The notes under the pieces: model-generated
Told to the model about the DNA's origin: nothing
The model's database searches: none
Seen by the model: only the letters and a program-made list of their open reading frames with translations
Made by a program: the position numbers and the translations under genes
Source of the DNA: Tolypothrix sp. PCC 7910
GTDB lineage: Bacteria > Cyanobacteriota > Cyanobacteriia > Cyanobacteriales > Nostocaceae
Length of the DNA: 64,000 nucleotides
Reading direction: 5' to 3'
NCBI RefSeq assembly: GCF_011769525.1
Contig: NZ_CP050440.1
Coordinates: 7,069,501-7,133,500, forward strand
Shown: positions 29,590 to 42,270 of the stretch, one piece after another
How the letters are laid out: every line of letters begins with the position of its first letter
How positions within the stretch are numbered: position 1 is the stretch's first letter

Positions 29590-30390
29590 TCACAAAGACT
29601 CATAGCCAGCCTTGAGAGATGCATTGTAGATATCAGCGATCGCGTTATAATCTGCTAACTTCACTGTCGCAAAGTGCTTGACTCCTACTCGTTGCATTGC
29701 TGTCTGTAGTTCAGTATCCGGCTCAAGCAAAGCTAACTGTATCTCCTGAATTATAGATTTCCCCAAATGCTCGGCTGCAACTAAAGGCGGCATGGGACAG
29801 GGGCCGAGTGCCTCAACTACGCGCAAGTACTGATATAACTCGGGAAAATTATGTAATTCTTGTTCTAGTACCACACTATCAATAGCCGCACAATCTACCT
29901 TTCCTAGTGCTACCCAGCAAATAGAATTTTGGTGAGAACCTGATTGTATAGCTTTGCTAAAAAATGGTTGGGGATATCTTCCCTGTAACAAGCGATGACG
30001 CAGCAGATTATAGCCGCTATTAGAACCTGGATCGTTGTAGCACACCGTTTTACCAGCTAAATCATCAAATTTGATGACATCACTATCAGCATTGACTATC
30101 ACATCCGAAAAGTAAATTGGACGGTTGCGATAACGCAGTGCTTGCATCACGGGTGCAACCACAGGCTGCAACTGATCCAACACTATCTGAGAATAACGAA
30201 TCAGGGGTAATCCGCAAATGAAAGCTAGGTCTAGTTGGTCTTTTAAAATTAGAGGATCTAATAAAGGGTCGCATTCACCCTGCTTTAATTGCGTTTTTGC
30301 TCCCAAAACCCGATCTAAATAAGCCAATACTGCTTCGTAGAAACTAAACCAATTGGGAGCTAAATAGGAAATAGCTTGTAATTTTTTCAA
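29590..30390 (-). CDS. PhnD-like phosphate/phosphonate-binding family protein without signal peptide
   Basis: 266 residues with the periplasmic type II binding-protein fold of the PhnD/PtxB group: LDLAFICGLPLIRY, the hinge segment DLAGKTVCYNDPGSNSGYNLLRHRL, SGSHQNSICWVALGKVDCAAIDSVV. Unusually it begins MKKLQAISYLAPNWFS with no hydrophobic signal and no lipobox, so it is probably cytoplasmic or membrane-associated via a partner. The start is TTG at 30390, one base after the stop of the upstream membrane protein, so the two are coupled. No ABC permease or ATPase genes follow. Ligand unknown; a sensory use is possible. Confidence 0.78.
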   Translation of the reverse strand: MKKLQAISYLAPNWFSFYEAVLAYLDRVLGAKTQLKQGECDPLLDPLILKDQLDLAFICGLPLIRYSQIVLDQLQPVVAPVMQALRYRNRPIYFSDVIVNADSDVIKFDDLAGKTVCYNDPGSNSGYNLLRHRLLQGRYPQPFFSKAIQSGSHQNSICWVALGKVDCAAIDSVVLEQELHNFPELYQYLRVVEALGPCPMPPLVAAEHLGKSIIQEIQLALLEPDTELQTAMQRVGVKHFATVKLADYNAIADIYNASLKAGYESL

Positions 30391-30391
30391 C

Positions 30392-30691
30392 TTATTTACT
30401 AGTAGATTCTACTGTTTCTTGAGCAATGTTGAAACCTGAAATTAGCTTGCGGGAATACCAATGAAAACCTAAGAAAATCATACTCACCAAGGTCAGCAGC
30501 ATCACACTAAAAATCGTTCCGTATGCTTTAGTATGCCACCACAATTTTTGTACTGCTGCACCAGCTATTCTTACAACACTCCAAAAGCTACCTTGATTGA
30601 TATGCTGAGAAGCGTGAATTATGATTTCCTCGGACGTTGCTGTGTTTTGCTGTTCTAATATGCCCAAGGGCTTATTACTCAACATCGCCAT
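30392..30691 (-). CDS. Small single-TM protein coupled to the PhnD-like gene (99 residues)
   Basis: MAMLSNKPLGILEQQN... with a soluble N-terminal part, an amphipathic stretch at about 38-55 and one clear transmembrane helix at about 58-80 (IFSVMLLTLVSMIFLGFHWY), then a short tail. The start at 30691 is supported by GAGGAG eight bases upstream; a longer reading to 30721 lacks a ribosome site. It ends one base before the TTG start of the PhnD-like protein, so the pair is co-translated. No family recognised; a membrane anchor or partner for the binding protein is an inference. Confidence 0.65.
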   Translation of the reverse strand: MAMLSNKPLGILEQQNTATSEEIIIHASQHINQGSFWSVVRIAGAAVQKLWWHTKAYGTIFSVMLLTLVSMIFLGFHWYSRKLISGFNIAQETVESTSK

Positions 30692-30841
30692 TTTGATAAC
30701 TCCTCTAGACCCTAAAATCAATCAGCTCTCTAAAAACTACGGTAAGTCGATAGGGATAAAGAGCTTTATAAAAATATGCCATAGCTTGGTTGAAGACGCA
30801 AGCTAGGCGTTAGCCATTGATGTTTGTAGTTGCAGAGGGAA

Positions 30842-35404: not shown

Positions 35405-36199
35405 ATGTTCAGACCTAATAGACTGAAGAAAATGCTCCAAACCGACTCTCAACCAATCGGTTGCTGGATTTTCTTCTCAGATACTGACTCAATCGAACTG
35501 CTTTCTATGTGTGGTTTCGATGCCTTTATCATCGACCACGAACATGGTGCTATGGATATGGGTGTCTTAGTAGAGCAACTCCGGGCTGCTCAGGCAACAG
35601 ATGTTACCTGTATTTTGCGTGTACCTTCAAACGATCCAGTCTATATCAAGCGAGCATTGGAAATGGGCGTGGAAGGTATAGTTGTTCCAACTGTAGAATC
35701 AGCAGATGAAGCACGAGCTATTGTCGCCGCGACTCGCTACCGACCTCATGGTGGACACCGAGGTGTTGGTTATCCAGAAAGCCGCGCAGCTAACTGGGGT
35801 TTAGCAGAGCTTGAGTATCCTGCAAATTATCGAGAGAACCTAATTGTAGCGGTTATCGTTGAAACCCGTCGGGGCTTTGAGAATGTTAGGGAAATTGCCG
35901 CAGTTGAAGGAATCGATATGGTAATTTTAGGAGCAGGCGATTTGATGGCAGACATCGCGGAAGATTTTGCGGCACTGACTAAGTTAGGAACTTACAATAA
36001 TTCAGAACTTGACCGATTGTTGGCAGAAGCAGAAGCGATAGTTCGCTCCACCCCCGATTGTTGGCTTGGAGGTGTCAGTCGTCATGTTGCCGGAGGTCGC
36101 GAACTGTTTGCTAAGGGCTATAATTTTGTGCTACCTGCTGCTGATGGCTGGATGCTGACTGATGCAGCACGCTCGATTGTCACTGGTATGAGAGGTTAA
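35405..36199 (+). CDS. HpcH/HpaI-family class II aldolase
   Basis: 264 residues, TIM-barrel aldolase/citrate-lyase family acting by retro-aldol cleavage of 2-keto-3-deoxy acids or 4-hydroxy-2-oxo acids to pyruvate and an aldehyde, with a divalent metal. Visible are the catalytic His segment IDHEHGAMD (residues about 44-52), the phosphate/carboxylate-binding Arg in ILRVPSND, GVEGIVVPTVES, the family signature GVGYPESRA, and the metal ligands Glu in VIVETRRG and Asp in GAGDLMADI. Here GAGDL replaces the more usual GPxDLS. It precedes the RidA gene by 61 bases on the same strand and probably forms an operon with it. Substrate unknown. Confidence 0.88.
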   Translation: MFRPNRLKKMLQTDSQPIGCWIFFSDTDSIELLSMCGFDAFIIDHEHGAMDMGVLVEQLRAAQATDVTCILRVPSNDPVYIKRALEMGVEGIVVPTVESADEARAIVAATRYRPHGGHRGVGYPESRAANWGLAELEYPANYRENLIVAVIVETRRGFENVREIAAVEGIDMVILGAGDLMADIAEDFAALTKLGTYNNSELDRLLAEAEAIVRSTPDCWLGGVSRHVAGGRELFAKGYNFVLPAADGWMLTDAARSIVTGMRG

Positions 36200-36260
36200 A
36201 AACTGCCGTTCTCAAGTGAAACGAGGCTGATTTTTAGTTTAAAAGTTTGGAGCTACTTAT

Positions 36261-36716
36261 ATGGCAAAGACTCGTGAAGTCATTATTCCCAAAGGCATGG
36301 AAATTTTATATGAAAAGTATCACTACTGTCCTGGCATTAAGGTAGGCAATACTTTATATATTTCAGGACAGGTAGGACGCGATGAAAATTTACAGGTAGT
36401 AGAGGGAGTAGAAGCCCAATTTGTCCAGACTTTTGAAAATGTGAAAAAGGTACTGACAGCAGCAGGAGCGACTTTTGATGATGTGGTAGAGATGATTACT
36501 TACCATGTGACAGGAGTGAATCTCGGTAATTTGCAAGTTCCGCCTGCAGATGCTTCCGAACAGCGATTTACCATTCCCCACCTGCCACTGTTTATGCAAG
36601 TAAAAGACCGCTATTTTACTAATAACTTTCCTACTTGGACGGGATTTGGCATCAGTGCATTATCTACACCAGGACTAATTGTAGAAATTAAGTGTACAGC
36701 AGTCCTAGATAATTAG
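36261..36716 (+). CDS. RidA (YjgF/YER057c/UK114) family protein
   Basis: 151 residues, a little longer than the usual 125-135. The RidA core is seen in GNTLYISGQVGRD, ENVKKVLTAAGATFDDVVEMITYHV and FPTWTGFGISALSTPGLIVEIKCTAV; the carboxylate-binding Arg of canonical RidA (in xxARxxV) appears to be absent (TWTGFGI in its place), so it belongs to one of the Rid subgroups without proven imine deaminase activity. It ends nine bases before the converging alpha/beta-hydrolase gene. Context suggests handling of enamine/imine intermediates in the pathway of this cluster. Confidence 0.85.
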   Translation: MAKTREVIIPKGMEILYEKYHYCPGIKVGNTLYISGQVGRDENLQVVEGVEAQFVQTFENVKKVLTAAGATFDDVVEMITYHVTGVNLGNLQVPPADASEQRFTIPHLPLFMQVKDRYFTNNFPTWTGFGISALSTPGLIVEIKCTAVLDN

Positions 36717-36724
36717 AGTTTCAA

Positions 36725-37546
36725 CTATTCCGGATCATTGAGAAATTTGATGACTACCTGGGCTACTTCTTCAGCTATTTGATTCATCATGCAAATTGTG
36801 CCTTCTTCAAATTCCACGACTTTGCCATGAGGAATTGCTTGAGACAGAAAATAGCGATCGCCTGCTTTTGCTAAATTCAATTTTTCAAATTCTTTGACAT
36901 CATCCATTCCCCAAATAATCAGAGTTGGACACTTGATGGCACGAAATCTTTCTGGCGCATCTAGACAGTAATTGCCTACAGCCCAAACTGCATATAAAGG
37001 ATGACCAAAACATTTTAAATCGTCTAAAACCCAACGGTGATTTAATTCAGCAGAGCCGACATATCGAGAACGGGCTAACCATCTTTCCATGAGATGCGAG
37101 CCATCTTCTTGGATTTTAAAACCTTCCTCAACTCTTCTAAATAGCTCTGCTTGTCCTCCTTCACCAAAACCAGCTACGTTACCTAAAATCAATTTGTCAA
37201 CGCGATCGCTATAACTCGCAGCTATTTCTCCGGAAACAAAAGCGCCAGTATGGTTTCCCATAATACTGGTTTTTTCTATACCTAATTCATCTAAAAGTGC
37301 GATCGCTGTTTTTGCATAGTCGGCGATTGTATACATTCTGGGTGGTTTATCTGAATCACCAAACCCCATCAAATCCATTGCGATGACTCGTCTGTGTTCG
37401 GCCAGGAGTGGCATCAGTTCGCGATATTCATCACTACTGCGGGGATTCATGTGCAGTAGCAGAATGGGTTCACCTTCTCCGCCAATGCGATAAAGAATCT
37501 GTCCGTCTTCAGTATCTAAAAAAGCTCGTTTAATCTTTTGTGTCAT
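36725..37546 (-). CDS. Alpha/beta-hydrolase fold protein with His at the nucleophile position (copy 1)
   Basis: 273 residues with the complete alpha/beta-hydrolase core (ILLLHMNPRSSDEYRELMP, RRVIAMDLMGFGDSDKPP, DRVDKLILGNVAGFG, CPTLIIWGMDD). The catalytic points are changed: the nucleophile elbow is GNHTG with His99 where Ser is usual, the oxyanion HG is His32-Met33, and the position of the general-base His (GxGH before the last helix) is Thr250 (EEGTICMMNQ). Proteins with GHHTG-like elbows are known as a broad uncharacterised group. It is transcribed after the BKACE gene (82 bases apart) and shares over half its residues with the second copy at 39677. Confidence 0.85.
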   Translation of the reverse strand: MTQKIKRAFLDTEDGQILYRIGGEGEPILLLHMNPRSSDEYRELMPLLAEHRRVIAMDLMGFGDSDKPPRMYTIADYAKTAIALLDELGIEKTSIMGNHTGAFVSGEIAASYSDRVDKLILGNVAGFGEGGQAELFRRVEEGFKIQEDGSHLMERWLARSRYVGSAELNHRWVLDDLKCFGHPLYAVWAVGNYCLDAPERFRAIKCPTLIIWGMDDVKEFEKLNLAKAGDRYFLSQAIPHGKVVEFEEGTICMMNQIAEEVAQVVIKFLNDPE

Positions 37547-37628
37547 GATTTTTGAGCGATCGCAGTTAAATTTCTTTTTTTCTTTTTAGGTGGACATCGC
37601 CCACCCTTGTATATTAAAAGAACTGGTA

Positions 37629-38552
37629 TTAGTTAACGGTTGCCTGTAGCTTTTCTGTAACAGCAGGTCGCGGCGGCATCTTCAGAATCTCACGCGCTTG
37701 TGCTGGCGTTGCCACTTCCCGACCGAGTGTATGCGCCATCTTTGCAACCATCTCGACTAATTCGCCGTGGTGCGGCTTGCCAAAGCGAGTGTAAGCATAA
37801 TCTCCCAGTCCAATTGCAACGTGTCCGCCAAGGGTAATTGCCCAGGATGCGACCCTCATCACATCTCCATTCCAGCAAAGTACCAACCACTGGTTACCGG
37901 CAGGAACCTCAGCTATAAACGCCTGCAAACCCGGTAAAGTTACCGCAGCGCCAGCCGGCATTATTTCCCCAGTAAAGACAAACTCCCAAAGCGTTTCTTT
38001 GGGCAGCAGTCCCATTTCCTGAAAGCAACGCGCTGTTCGCATTTGCCCTACGTCCCAACAAACTGAACTCACATAGATATTGTGTTTTTTGAATACTTCT
38101 AGCACCGCCTTGAGGTTTTCCCGGCTATTAACATACACCTGATCGTAGGTGGTGAACTGTTTCGCCTGGGGATTCCAGAAGTCTACGTTGAGCGAGCCAA
38201 AATCCACTGGTGCCATGTCAACCCGCAGCACTGGATCATCATTCACTGCCAAGATATGCCGGACGCGATCCTCTACCTGATTCTGTGTAATGTAGCCCAG
38301 CGTCGGATGGATGAGGAGATCCGTCTGTTCACGAATTCCCTGTATCACTTCGAGATAAAGTTCAACATCGTTGCGTGGTGTCCCACTCTCTGGATCTCGT
38401 CCGTGCCAATGAAAAATTGAAGCCCCTGCTTCCCAAGCACGAACTGCTTCGCGGATGATCTCTTTTGGAGAGTAAGGTAAAGCAGGATTGTCCTCGCGTT
38501 TGGTGATTTCGTTACAACGACACTCGATAATCAATGGTAATTCGTTGTTCAT
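37629..38552 (-). CDS. BKACE family (3-keto-5-aminohexanoate cleavage enzyme-like, DUF849)
   Basis: 307 residues, TIM-barrel zinc enzyme that condenses a beta-keto acid with acetyl-CoA or another CoA ester to give acetoacetate and a CoA thioester. Zn ligands His48 and His50 are seen in FHWHGRDPESG; YSPKEIIREAVRAWEAGAS is the family's N-terminal helix, HVAIGLGDYAY holds the late conserved Gly-rich strand. The N-terminal ITxxxTG motif of KCE proper is altered (IECRCNEITKREDNPALP), so the beta-keto acid is probably another one. It has AAGGAAG before the ATG and heads the minus-strand pair with alpha/beta-hydrolase copy 1. Confidence 0.87.
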   Translation of the reverse strand: MNNELPLIIECRCNEITKREDNPALPYSPKEIIREAVRAWEAGASIFHWHGRDPESGTPRNDVELYLEVIQGIREQTDLLIHPTLGYITQNQVEDRVRHILAVNDDPVLRVDMAPVDFGSLNVDFWNPQAKQFTTYDQVYVNSRENLKAVLEVFKKHNIYVSSVCWDVGQMRTARCFQEMGLLPKETLWEFVFTGEIMPAGAAVTLPGLQAFIAEVPAGNQWLVLCWNGDVMRVASWAITLGGHVAIGLGDYAYTRFGKPHHGELVEMVAKMAHTLGREVATPAQAREILKMPPRPAVTEKLQATVN

Positions 38553-38861
38553 GGTCTTCCTTTCAGTAGGTAGGCAAATTTATTTATATATCTAATTGAC
38601 AGTTATATTTTTTGTTCTCTGCTCTCCCTCTATGCAAAAATGCTTAATTAATTTTGCACAATTACTGGCTGATTTTCCCAAAAATCAACTACTTTTAATA
38701 CGTTATTCGGAAATTTGATTGCAAGTTCTCAGAGTGCCATAGGGTACTTAATAAAACTAAATCTTTCTTTGATGGATGATGGCTGCTGGTTTATTATCCG
38801 TGTTGATGAGGAATTTATTATAAATATATACAGTATTTTCAGATAGACCTGGAGATGCCTA
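38553..38861. other. Divergent promoter region between BKACE and ABM-like genes
   Basis: 309 bases without a gene; AT-rich, with ATTATTTATTAT-like tracts. No operator could be recognised. Confidence 0.45.
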
Positions 38862-39320
38862 ATGACAAAACCAAGTACTTTTTTGAGTATTCTTTGGAGA
38901 TTGGTGATTTCCGTTATTGTACCACTTGCTGTTTTTACACAGATTGAAACCATTGCAGCATCAGCTGAACCTGTACCAAATAATTCTGCTACTACCCAAT
39001 CCAAGAAAGTTGTGGCTCGTATTTGGCATGGTACAACTCCGACATCGAAAGCAGATGAATACTATACTTATTTAGTAGAAGCGGGAATTAAAAAAATCGA
39101 ATCAATTCCTGGTAATTTGGGGACGCAAGTCCTTCGTCGCACTAATGGCAATAATACAGAATTTACTGTGATTTCTTACTGGGAATCACGAGATGCAATT
39201 CGTAAGTTTGCTGGTAACGACATTGAAAAAGTCAGACCTCTTCCAAGAGATAATGAATATCTCATCAACCCTGAAACCACAGTTAAACACTTTGATGTCA
39301 TAATCGACGATCGCAAATAA
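38862..39320 (+). CDS. Exported antibiotic biosynthesis monooxygenase (ABM)-like protein
   Basis: 152 residues. Residues 1-34 form a signal peptide or anchor (SILWRLVISVIVPLAVFTQIETIAASAE). Residues 48-150 look like a dimeric alpha-beta barrel of the ABM/YgiN type (VVARIWHGTTPTSKADEYYTYLVEAGI, LGTQVLRRTNGNNTEFTVISYWESRDAIRKFAG). Most ABM proteins are cytoplasmic, so an exported form is unusual. The gene is divergent from BKACE and followed directly by a 21-bp tandem repeat. Its role in the cluster is not clear, and it may be a bystander. Confidence 0.78.
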   Translation: MTKPSTFLSILWRLVISVIVPLAVFTQIETIAASAEPVPNNSATTQSKKVVARIWHGTTPTSKADEYYTYLVEAGIKKIESIPGNLGTQVLRRTNGNNTEFTVISYWESRDAIRKFAGNDIEKVRPLPRDNEYLINPETTVKHFDVIIDDRK

Positions 39321-39327
39321 TTTTAGG

Positions 39328-39558
39328 TCGTTACATTAGCAATGTCAGTCGTTGCATTAACAATGTCAACCGATACATTAACAATGTCAACCGATACATT
39401 AACAATGTCAACCGATACATTAACAATGTCAGCCGATACATTAACAATGTCAGCCGATACATTAACAATGTCAGTCGTTGCATTAACAATGTCAACCGAT
39501 ACATTAGCAATGTCAGTCGTTACATTAACAATGTCAACCAATACATTAACAATGCTGA
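39328..39558. repeat. Minisatellite: 11 units of 21 bp
   Basis: Units of the form CCGATACATTAACAATGTCA(A/G) with variants TCGTTACATT and TCGTTGCATT. Because the period is divisible by three and lacks stops, both strands are open (heptapeptide LTMSTDT on plus, DIVNVSV on minus), but neither has gene features. It lies seven bases after the ABM-like gene. Confidence 0.93.
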
Positions 39559-39676
39559 TGAAGCAACTTACTTGTGTGTACACCGTAGCCCCGCAAGCAG
39601 GGCGGGGATGTTTGTTGGATATTTTGGCTGTAGACAAAACTAAGGTGGGGTAATGCGGATCTTGATTAGCCGATGA

Positions 39677-40492
39677 TTAATTTTGCAGAAAATCGACTAC
39701 TAATTTTAATATTTCTGTTGGCATTTGATTTACCATCCACAGGTTTCCGCCTTCTAATTCGACACTTTGACTATGAGAAATTACTTCCTTGAGCCAAGAT
39801 TGATTTTCTGCTTTGGCTAAACCAGCTTTTTCTAATGCTTCTAATGCCTTGTCTCCCGACATAATCAAAGTGGGACAGTTAATTAAACGAAATCTTTCTG
39901 GAGCCGAAAGACAATAATTTGCTACTGCAACACCAGGATATATAGTAGAACCGAAAGATTTTAACTCATCTAAAACACAACGGTGATTTAACTCTCCTGT
40001 GCCAACATAATTAACACGAGATAGCCATCTTCCCATCAAATGAGAGCCATCTTCTTGCACTTTATATCCCTGGGAATATAGCTGGAGAATTTTGTCTTGT
40101 TCTTCTGCATCAAATCCAACTACATTACAGAGAATGAGTTTTTCCACTCTTTCTGGATAGGCGGCTGCAACTTCTCCAGCGATATAACCACCTGTCACAC
40201 TACCAAAAATGCTGACCTTTTTTATGCCTAACTCGTCCAAAAGTGCGATCGCATTTTTGGCATAGTCTGCAACTGAATACACTCTAGGCGGCTTGTCGGA
40301 ATCCCCTAACCCCATTAAATCCATTGCAATTACTAAGTTGGTAGCTGCCAAATTCGGCATCAATTCTTTAAATTCATCACTACTGCGGGGAGTCATATGC
40401 AGTAAAAGTATCGCTTCACCTTCTCCACCTATACGGTAAAGAATTTGCCCATCCTGTGTATCTAAAAATGCTCTTTTGATACTTTGGCTCAT
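39677..40492 (-). CDS. Alpha/beta-hydrolase fold protein with Val at the nucleophile position (copy 2)
   Basis: 271 residues, paralogue of the protein at 36725-37546 (the first 80 residues are nearly the same: IKRAFLDTxDGQILYRIGGEGE). Here the elbow is GSVTG with Val99 at the nucleophile position, the oxyanion HG is His32-Met33, and the general-base His position is Asn250 (EGGNLWMVNQ). No acyl-enzyme chemistry of the usual type is possible. It lies 39 bases behind the amidohydrolase gene and is very probably co-transcribed with it. The pair of paralogues accompanying two different enzymes suggests a pathway role. Confidence 0.85.
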   Translation of the reverse strand: MSQSIKRAFLDTQDGQILYRIGGEGEAILLLHMTPRSSDEFKELMPNLAATNLVIAMDLMGLGDSDKPPRVYSVADYAKNAIALLDELGIKKVSIFGSVTGGYIAGEVAAAYPERVEKLILCNVVGFDAEEQDKILQLYSQGYKVQEDGSHLMGRWLSRVNYVGTGELNHRCVLDELKSFGSTIYPGVAVANYCLSAPERFRLINCPTLIMSGDKALEALEKAGLAKAENQSWLKEVISHSQSVELEGGNLWMVNQMPTEILKLVVDFLQN

Positions 40493-40531
40493 TTTTTATA
40501 CTCCCTACATTACCAATCAAGGACGATACAA

Positions 40532-42019
40532 CTAAGCATTTAAGGCACTATGGGAACGTTTCAAATAACGTCCAGTAGGCGAACCTAAAACTTGACCATT
40601 GTTGTAAATCAAATTTCCTCGTAAAAAGGTACTCTTAACCCTTCCGGTTAACTCTGCACCTTCAAAAGGTGTGTAACCTTGTTGCGATTCCGACTCAGCC
40701 GCACGTACCACAAAGGTTTCAGTGGGATTTACTAATACTAAATCCGCATCATAACCAATAGCAATATCCCCTTTTTCTAACAAGCCAAAACGCCTTGATG
40801 GGTTCCAAGATAGCAACTTAGCCATGTGGTTGTAAGACATTCCTCGCTTACTTCCTTCACTTAAAACACCAGAAAGTAAATATTCTGTACCGCCAAAACC
40901 AGATTTAGCTAACCAAATATTATTTGGATCTTTTGGACTGCGTTTTTGTTCAGCAGAACAGCAAGCATGATCGCTAACTATCCAATCTACTTGATGATTT
41001 AGTACTGCTTGCCATAAATATTCCACATCAGCACGGGGACGAATTGGCGGATTAACTTTTGCCCAAGTACTATTAGGAGTATCAACATCTAAGAGTAAAT
41101 GTCCTACAGTAACTTCGCGCCGAAAATTAATATGAGGAAAAGCAGTTTGCATAGTTAAAGCTGCTTCCATTGCTTTCCGCGAACTGAGATGTAATAAATT
41201 GATATTTGCACAGTTTGTTTCATGTGCTAAATATGAAGCAATGCAAATTGCTAAACCTTCGGAATGTGGCGGACGTGCTGCACTGTAAGCTTTTAGTCCA
41301 CTCAAGCTAGAATCATTTTCAACTATTTTGGTGTAGGCATTGAGAATTTCTGCAACTTCACAATGCAAACTCAAACTAATAGTATCTCGCGCTGCTGGAT
41401 ATGCTTCCCTTAAGCGAGTGAGACCGCGCATAATAAATTCAAAATGGGCAAAGTCATAGCGTTCTTCTTTATTAATCATTAAAAAGAGATTTTGCTGGTT
41501 TGATAAACCATGCAAACCATAACCGCCATAAAACATAAAAATTTTAAACGAAGATACCCCATATTCTTCAAATAATAAGGGTATTTCTTCAATATGCTGT
41601 TTAGCTATTGGTGCAATGTGATAACTGTAATCAACAAAAAAATTACCTGCAGATAATGCTAATACTTCCGGAAAAAAATCTTTGTAAGAACCACCTTTAT
41701 TGAGATAATACTGCCCTGTACGAATGTAATTTAGGCTAGTAGTTACGCCTCCCATTGCTGCAGCTTTGCTTTCAGTTACGGCATCTTCTTCTAGAGGTTG
41801 ATAGATACCAATGTGCATATGAGCATCGACAACCCCAGGAAATCCTAGCAAGTTTCTGGCATCAAATACTTGTCGGCTTTTATCTGGGCTAATATGAGGA
41901 GCAATCTCGATAAATTTCCCATTCTTAATGCCTAAATCTAGTAGTTCGACCGTATCATTATGAGGACGAACTACGCGCACATTTTTGATAATTAAATCTA
42001 ATAGAAAAGCTTCAGACAT
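40532..42019 (-). CDS. Hydantoinase/dihydropyrimidinase-type cyclic amidohydrolase
   Basis: 495 residues, amidohydrolase superfamily. All binuclear-metal ligands appear: His67 and His69 in VVDAHMHIG, the carbamylated-Lys candidate Lys159 in SSFKIFMFYGG (compare SFKxFMAY of hydantoinases), His in LSLHCEVAE and LLHLSS, and Asp in IVSDHACCS. Such enzymes open cyclic amides or ureides (hydantoins, dihydropyrimidines, dihydroorotate, allantoin). The substrate loops differ from the known classes, so the substrate is open. The ATG at 42019 is preferred because GAGG lies six bases upstream; a TTG at 42031 sits in that site. First gene of a pair with alpha/beta-hydrolase copy 2. Confidence 0.87.
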   Translation of the reverse strand: MSEAFLLDLIIKNVRVVRPHNDTVELLDLGIKNGKFIEIAPHISPDKSRQVFDARNLLGFPGVVDAHMHIGIYQPLEEDAVTESKAAAMGGVTTSLNYIRTGQYYLNKGGSYKDFFPEVLALSAGNFFVDYSYHIAPIAKQHIEEIPLLFEEYGVSSFKIFMFYGGYGLHGLSNQQNLFLMINKEERYDFAHFEFIMRGLTRLREAYPAARDTISLSLHCEVAEILNAYTKIVENDSSLSGLKAYSAARPPHSEGLAICIASYLAHETNCANINLLHLSSRKAMEAALTMQTAFPHINFRREVTVGHLLLDVDTPNSTWAKVNPPIRPRADVEYLWQAVLNHQVDWIVSDHACCSAEQKRSPKDPNNIWLAKSGFGGTEYLLSGVLSEGSKRGMSYNHMAKLLSWNPSRRFGLLEKGDIAIGYDADLVLVNPTETFVVRAAESESQQGYTPFEGAELTGRVKSTFLRGNLIYNNGQVLGSPTGRYLKRSHSALNA

Positions 42020-42270
42020 AGTAGACCTCAAAGTTAAATTAGTATAATACTCAAATTTGATATCAATACAAAAGATGTAATTTTATTCAACTATTGTACA
42101 ATTTAAGCTTATATAGCAATCTCGATTTGATTGCTAAAATGACTTGCGTGGTGAGTGTAGCGCAAGCTAAGTAGAGAAATTTATACTGTAAATTTAGTTA
42201 CTTGCTGTGATTAGCACTTGCTTGATGGGCAAACTTAACTGAGAAGTTATGAAAGAGTTAGGTTTTGCTG

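Follow-up and report, generated by a model that had tools for sequence, protein, structure and literature searches.

Hydantoinases and dihydropyrimidinases act in pairs, the former with an N-carbamoylase and the latter with a beta-ureidopropionase, and the second enzyme of such a pair often belongs to the nitrilase superfamily. The locus described here is carried by the cyanobacterium Tolypothrix sp. PCC 7910 (genome of 8.76 Mb), in a window of 64,000 nucleotides (C1:7069501-7133500), this being the whole stretch of DNA that was analysed. It occupies positions 35405-42019 of the window and includes a hydantoinase-type cyclic amidohydrolase, termed AMD. The locus resembles the known pairs in that AMD has a metal site of the carbamylated-lysine type and co-occurs with a nitrilase-superfamily amidase (carbon-nitrogen hydrolase, below nitrilase). 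To our knowledge, the remaining families of the AMD gene set are not part of either paired pathway. A functional gene set very probably exists, with ring opening and then amide hydrolysis slightly favoured as its course. The reading that the window genes are AMD with an accessory module, and belong to a larger catabolic set of cyanobacteria in which AMD, the nitrilase and then carbon-skeleton enzymes would act in succession, is held with about even confidence.

The earlier note on this DNA had described seven genes in four short transcription units. Seven open reading frames (ORFs) so arranged were confirmed from the ORF list and Pfam, and the families named for them all scored above the Pfam cut-offs. 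They are as follows.

35405-36199, plus strand: HpcH, an HpcH/HpaI-type aldolase (PF03328, 3e-31)
36261-36716, plus strand: Rid protein without the family's arginine (Ribonuc_L-PSP; PF01042, 3e-20)
36725-37546, minus strand: ABH1, alpha/beta-hydrolase fold, elbow GNHTGAF (His at the nucleophile position), catalytic His lost
37629-38552, minus strand: BKACE-superfamily enzyme, nearest to the cis-epoxysuccinate hydrolase CESH[D] (PF05853, 6e-72)
38862-39320, plus strand: ABM-domain protein with a hydrophobic N-terminal stretch (PF03992, 2.8e-07)
39677-40492, minus strand: ABH2, a paralogue of ABH1, elbow GSVTGGY (Val at the nucleophile position)
40532-42019, minus strand: AMD, hydantoinase-type cyclic amidohydrolase (PF01979), all metal ligands kept

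The intergenic gaps are small, with 61 bp between aldolase and Rid, 82 bp between the BKACE-superfamily gene and ABH1 and 39 bp between AMD and ABH2, which is consistent with paired genes and four transcription units. AMD starts with ATG, and an alternative TTG start would lengthen it to 42031; most AMD queries were run on 40532-42016, one codon shy of the ATG.

Enzymes of the hydantoinase type are marked by a set of metal ligands, namely an HxH motif, a carbamylatable Lys, two His and an Asp. All six are present in the window protein and in 16/16 aligned homologues, and the ligand motifs are unchanged in 81/81 alignment rows. Judged by its sequence, AMD is thus an intact hydantoinase-type cyclic amidohydrolase, as had been proposed. 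Its scores fall below the cut-offs of the curated models, at 230.5 bits for allantoinase (cut-off 357.85) and 179.6 for D-hydantoinase/dihydropyrimidinase (cut-off 393.25). In a tree of 16 rows AMD lies in a clade with actinobacterial proteins, split off by a 100/96 branch from the dihydropyrimidinases and allantoinases in the comparison (two of each), which sets it apart from the known pairs. Orthology with either enzyme was rejected on this branch and on the scores, and the possibility that AMD is an orthologue of a known dihydropyrimidinase, which would have counted against the proposed cluster, was not borne out. A decayed AMD was seen in one phylum-wide genome (G042:C1:1443290-1444090), where residues 223-488 alone remain, with three stop codons, adjoining an ABH that was matched at full length.

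Recurrence of the gene set was assessed in cyanobacterial relatives. The named AMD loci, 80 in number, are the best matches among at least 585 AMD relatives, and hence near relatives with AMD by construction; with the window they make 81. Neighbour groups were obtained by clustering the ORFs of these loci, which in the comparison loci were called mechanically (errors are possible, chiefly in high-GC loci), and as some contigs are short the counts are lower bounds. Around AMD, an Asp/Asn-hydroxylase-like gene occurs in at least 70 of the 81 loci, SnoaL in 41, a zinc-type alcohol dehydrogenase (Zn-ADH, quinone-reductase type) in 35, a DUF3598-like gene in 33, ABH in 31 (41 copies), hisS in 28, an aldehyde dehydrogenase (ALDH) in 22 and a carbon-nitrogen hydrolase in 21. 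Three DUF4437 cupin groups were found in at least 29, 19 and 7 loci, and Rid in 11, ABM in 8, the BKACE-like gene in 6, SDR in 5, HpcH in 4 and an Amdase-like gene in 4. Direct comparison therefore reveals a recurrent linkage. In one locus (L111) all but one of the seven window genes are found, a single ABH being present, in a cluster with nitrilase, ALDH, DUF3598, Asp-hydroxylase-like, ADH and SnoaL genes, and another of the same family (L101) carries nitrilase-ALDH-DUF3598-ABH-ADH-SnoaL, all in one direction. The window genes thus do occur together in relatives, so that the gene set first described is real and recurring, while its original list was incomplete, holding only part of a larger set.

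Two further samples were chosen regardless of AMD, one of 162 genomes from the same family, taken as Nostocaceae from named relatives, and one of 146 genomes across the phylum. Presence was scored at E-value limits of 1e-120 for AMD, 1e-90 for the nitrilase, 1e-60 for the BKACE-like protein and HpcH, 1e-45 for ABH and 1e-35 for Rid, and the counts depend on these limits; Fisher tests on co-occurrence in the 162 genomes ignore relatedness. Presence was directly seen to be nested, with zero exceptions among the 162 genomes: HpcH (8) lies within BKACE-like (17), this within Rid (21) and this within ABH (53). AMD is present in 80/162, with ABH in 47 of these 80, and 6/53 ABH genomes are without AMD. 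In 46/53 ABH genomes, an ABH lies no more than 20 kb from AMD or its nitrilase partner. Measured from start to start, the BKACE-like gene is at most 6.3 kb from ABH in 17/17 cases, at most 7.3 kb from Rid in 15/17 and at most 4.2 kb from AMD in 11/17. The proximity of ABH to AMD or the nitrilase, together with that of all BKACE-like genes to ABH, indicates an association beyond chance. Phylum-wide, AMD was found in 9 genomes, one of them the broken remnant in G042, and ABH in 6, all inside those 9.

The nitrilase, a partner lying outside the window and so out of view of the earlier note, follows AMD almost perfectly and provides the strongest new support for the proposal. It is present in 98/162 family genomes, including 79/80 with AMD, and phylum-wide the two occupy the identical 9/146 genomes. 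Among the 79 shared genomes, the genes lie within 20 kb of each other in 27, further apart on the same contig in 18 and on different contigs in 34, a situation that fragmented assemblies can cause. The largest same-contig separation, 5.8 Mb, is that of the host genome. As the pairing holds at such distances, the link is not merely an inherited neighbourhood. In the host genome the gene set occupies at least three separate sites, namely the window, C1:1.306 Mb (nitrilase-ALDH) and C1:0.501 Mb (a trio of Asp-hydroxylase-like, Zn-ADH and SnoaL genes).

These data also bear on the proposal that two or three independent cassettes were gathered at an insertion hot spot by hisS. The presence of hisS within 28/81 locus stretches, the variable module content and the fact that the Rid-ABH1-BKACE-like group may sit far from AMD (2.7 Mb in G172) would agree with it. 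However, the linkage is also seen where hisS is absent from the stretch (L098, L101, L102, L107 and the Lyngbya locus L080), AMD and the nitrilase co-occur even when megabases apart, and the nested presence holds without exception in the 162 genomes, which makes the hot spot quite improbable.

The accessory module is present in only some strains. After the removal of 22/81 loci with less than 5 kb on a side, 59 were scored for cupins and ABH, with relatedness uncorrected. Exclusivity between the two is weak, both being found in 10/59 loci (Fisher p 0.052), and on this ground DUF4437 cupins were rejected as a replacement for ABH. Rid, the BKACE-like gene and HpcH occur in 0/37 cupin loci, and Rid in 8/12 loci with ABH alone; as the three are confined, among the scored loci, to those that have ABH and no cupin, the set seems to come in two alternative versions.

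Of the individual families, the Rid protein invites comparison with the Rut pyrimidine pathway, where a Rid-family protein and an atypical alpha/beta-hydrolase-fold protein likewise occur together. According to one source, an Arg is essential for imine hydrolysis by Rid proteins, the Rid4 and Rid7 subfamilies have Trp in its place with a Glu retained, and the function of Rid4-Rid7 proteins was not known as of 2015 (PMC4433059). The window Rid reads PTWTG where 3k0t has PARAA and YjgH (1pf5) has PNWTA, and PTWTG is found in 11/11 Rid orthologues aligned. By motif alignment it carries both of the Rid4/Rid7 features described there, Trp for Arg and the Glu, and may belong to either subfamily. The loss of the catalytic residue is thus directly visible, and because Trp replaces the essential Arg, the imine deamination once expected of this protein is not supported; the RidA imine deaminase label was rejected.

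The same residue argues against a Rut-like variant of pyrimidine degradation, hinted at in the earlier note, with Rid and ABH in the places of RutC and RutD. The broad superfamilies are shared and the models do give weak matches, but the scores fall far short of the curated cut-offs (Rid against RutC, 32.6 of 169.1 bits; against RutD, 38.7 for ABH1 and 34.5 for ABH2 of 238.5). The window Rid also lacks the catalytic Arg, and the ABH proteins lack the Ser and catalytic His of the triad. No LLM oxygenase of the RutA type was seen among the annotated neighbour groups, not all of which were annotated, and RutA was not searched for genome-wide. A Rut-like route was therefore rejected on scores and residues as very improbable.

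The two hydrolase-fold proteins belong to a family duplicated across two of the transcription units, as had been noticed: ABH2 is 61% identical to ABH1, and the 20 other matches to ABH1 in the host genome reach at most 38% over the matched stretch. Among 41 cyanobacterial copies from 31 loci, the nucleophile elbow holds His in 28/41, Leu or Val in 13/41 and Ser in 0/41. Where PcaD has its catalytic His, the aligned residue is Thr in ABH1 and Asn in ABH2, and it is His in 0/8 ABH proteins aligned. Aligned comparison thus directly exposes the lost catalytic residues, and the label of pseudo-alpha/beta-hydrolases is upheld; a serine-type hydrolase, with its Ser/Asp/Cys nucleophile, acid and His, was rejected. 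In the dioxygenases HOD and AqdC and the tomato protein MKS1 the nucleophile is dispensable or replaced. These proteins retain the catalytic His (PMC10548524). ABH1 and ABH2 resemble them as an alpha/beta-hydrolase fold that does without the usual nucleophile, but differ in lacking the catalytic His and in having His (or Leu/Val) at the elbow. No described reaction for GxHTG alpha/beta-hydrolase-fold proteins was found in a limited search of the open-access literature.

Kce-type BKACE enzymes are marked by an HxH metal site and by Arg and Glu residues within a VRVGLED motif. The window protein retains HxH and reads VAIGLGD where the BKACE-fold chain 3lot has VRVGLED. The Glu position is Gly in 18/18 BKACE-like copies scored; where the Arg would stand, the window protein has Ala and most of 5 copies have Gly. 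Its nearest solved relative is CESH[D] (5zmu; E 7e-64, 121/288 alignment columns identical). A canonical Kce-type BKACE was rejected on these grounds, and the beta-keto acid cleavage that the family name had suggested is not supported. The catalytic residues of CESH[D] are given as R11, E14, D115, E190 and D251 (PMC6429283); to map them, the chain numbering was shifted by 20, an offset worked out from the sequence surrounding R11/E14. Of these, D115 and D251, and the HxH positions as well, are present in the window protein. The differences are that E190 is Val in the window, and Val, Ile or Leu in 19/19 orthologues, and that E14 and D115 are Asp and Glu, respectively, in some orthologues. Membership of CESH[D] was rejected on the change from E190 to Val, the one residue of those listed that differs. 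These alignments show the site to be CESH-like, not Kce-like.

In class II aldolases of the HpcH/HpaI type the active site is made up of Arg, His, Glu and Asp. The active-site stretches of the window HpcH are identical in residues to those of its best solved relative, 1dxe, and of 4b5s, which sustains the label of an HpcH-type aldolase; no equivalog cut-off was attained.

Outside cyanobacteria, the nearest AMDs found in a plasmid collection are 58-59% identical and belong to Rhodococcus and Streptomyces. The Rhodococcus relative lies near genes for hydantoinase/oxoprolinase, amidase, MmgE/PrpD, CoA ester lyase and CoA transferase, a catabolic cluster, and the Streptomyces one adjoins ORFs that by eye resemble a nitrate/taurine-type ABC transporter. 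In Nonomuraea gerenzanensis (L120, 12631-15462), ALDH, DUF3598 and nitrilase genes are contiguous (51, 44 and 53% identity), near genes that by eye are ABC-transporter-like, so that this three-gene unit crosses phyla. The relatives that follow are only ~29-41% identical and their parallels are suggestive only. On a plasmid of Variovorax sp. PBL-E5 (L130), a distant AMD relative is clustered with genes for F420 synthesis, RidA, a carbon-nitrogen hydrolase and an LLM oxidoreductase, which may form a heterocycle route of its own that depends on F420; in Antarctobacter, another lies near NTF2-family, isochorismatase-family and LLM genes. In Shinella an ABH relative is flanked by ALDH and an Asp/Glu racemase family gene, and in Rhodococcus YL-1 one lies beside Zn-ADH. 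A BKACE-like relative adjoins a CoA ester lyase in Octadecabacter, and another, in Cupriavidus, has a putative quinol monooxygenase encoded three genes downstream.

In the proposed catabolic course, AMD would hydrolyse a ring amide or ureide bond through a binuclear metal centre, and the nitrilase-family amidase would cut the resulting linear amide or carbamoyl group, by analogy with the hydantoinase/carbamoylase and dihydropyrimidinase/ureidopropionase pairs. ABH1 may handle an enamine-like or beta-keto product with its elbow His as general base, with ABH2 as a putative non-catalytic partner, and the Arg-less Rid could serve in binding or isomerisation. A short hydroxy or epoxy diacid might be broken by the CESH-like metalloenzyme together with the HpcH aldolase, and ALDH would oxidise a semialdehyde for entry into central metabolism. 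Support is weak for the parts given here to ABH, Rid, the CESH-like enzyme and HpcH. We infer a nitrogen heterocycle or cyclic imide as the substrate; of the specific candidates weighed, namely maleimide or bilin fragments, hydantoins and pyrimidines, none was chosen. No pathway with such a gene set was found in the open-access literature (most subscription papers lay outside the search), in keeping with the earlier note, which knew of none. It is possible, and put forward tentatively, that this is a novel and modular ring-opening pathway with parts common to cyanobacteria and actinomycetes, in which the GxHTG ABH proteins, as a distinct family, and the Arg-less Rid would perform non-hydrolytic steps.

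Several observations weigh against the catabolic set as proposed. The order of its steps is conjecture, 19/98 nitrilase genomes among the 162 are without AMD, and at the thresholds used 33/80 AMD genomes are without ABH and 60/80 without Rid, so that neither is essential to every version. The NtcA-type motif GTAN8TAC lies upstream of AMD in 1/80 loci, where shuffling gives a mean of 7; upstream of the nitrilase it lies in 0/20, below the shuffled mean. Among the 45 commonest neighbour groups, inspected by eye and not all annotated, no transporter was recognised in more than 4/81 loci. For the other genes, the motif is below shuffled means at ABH (2/41), ADH (0/35), DUF3598 (1/33) and hisS (1/27), and above the means, not above the shuffled maxima, at the BKACE-like gene (2/6) and Rid (2/11). 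As there is no overall enrichment, nitrogen control of the set is not supported, and NtcA control was rejected. One GTAN8TAC site is present in the window, at 42188-42201, in the gap between AMD and the gene at 42265.

The lack of site enrichment and of a commonly recurring transporter recognised by eye in the cyanobacterial loci would suit the main rival, a biosynthetic or metabolite-repair set that clears or modifies a damaged or reactive endogenous metabolite, such as an oxidised pigment or cofactor fragment, rather than an external food. The hosts are photoautotrophs, the accessory modules differ among strains, and the Arg-less Rid, the DUF4437 cupin and SnoaL would, in our judgement, suit repair or tailoring. 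However, the patchy distribution, with AMD in 9/146 phylum genomes, is unlike a universal repair need, and outside the cyanobacteria several relatives of AMD or the nitrilase unit lie beside uptake or catabolic genes, some annotated and some recognised by eye. Repair or biosynthesis is accordingly considered rather unlikely.

If the modular ring-opening pathway is real, it would give the Rid4-Rid7 proteins, for which no function had been assigned as of 2015, their first pathway context. A small nested set with an intact first enzyme makes the function of Rid4-Rid7 and GxHTG proteins directly testable, and later steps should follow once the AMD substrate is identified. The set also suggests that some photoautotrophs hold a modular heterocycle-degrading or repair pathway overlooked by annotation because its genes are dispersed in many genomes.

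Among the remaining features of the window, the ABM-domain protein (38862-39320) has a hydrophobic, signal-like N-terminus, read by eye, which is unusual for an ABM domain. Between its gene and ABH2 lies a tandem repeat (39332-39554) of a 21-bp unit in 10.6 copies with 88% match, which opens repetitive, probably spurious ORFs on both strands (39323-39653). Elsewhere, at 29590-30390, is a gene resembling by eye a phosphonate-type binding protein, adjoined by a small gene at 30392-30721; in four loci (L013, L024, L114 and L115) the groups of these two genes (c43/c44) are again found, close to hisS and L,D-transpeptidase-like genes.

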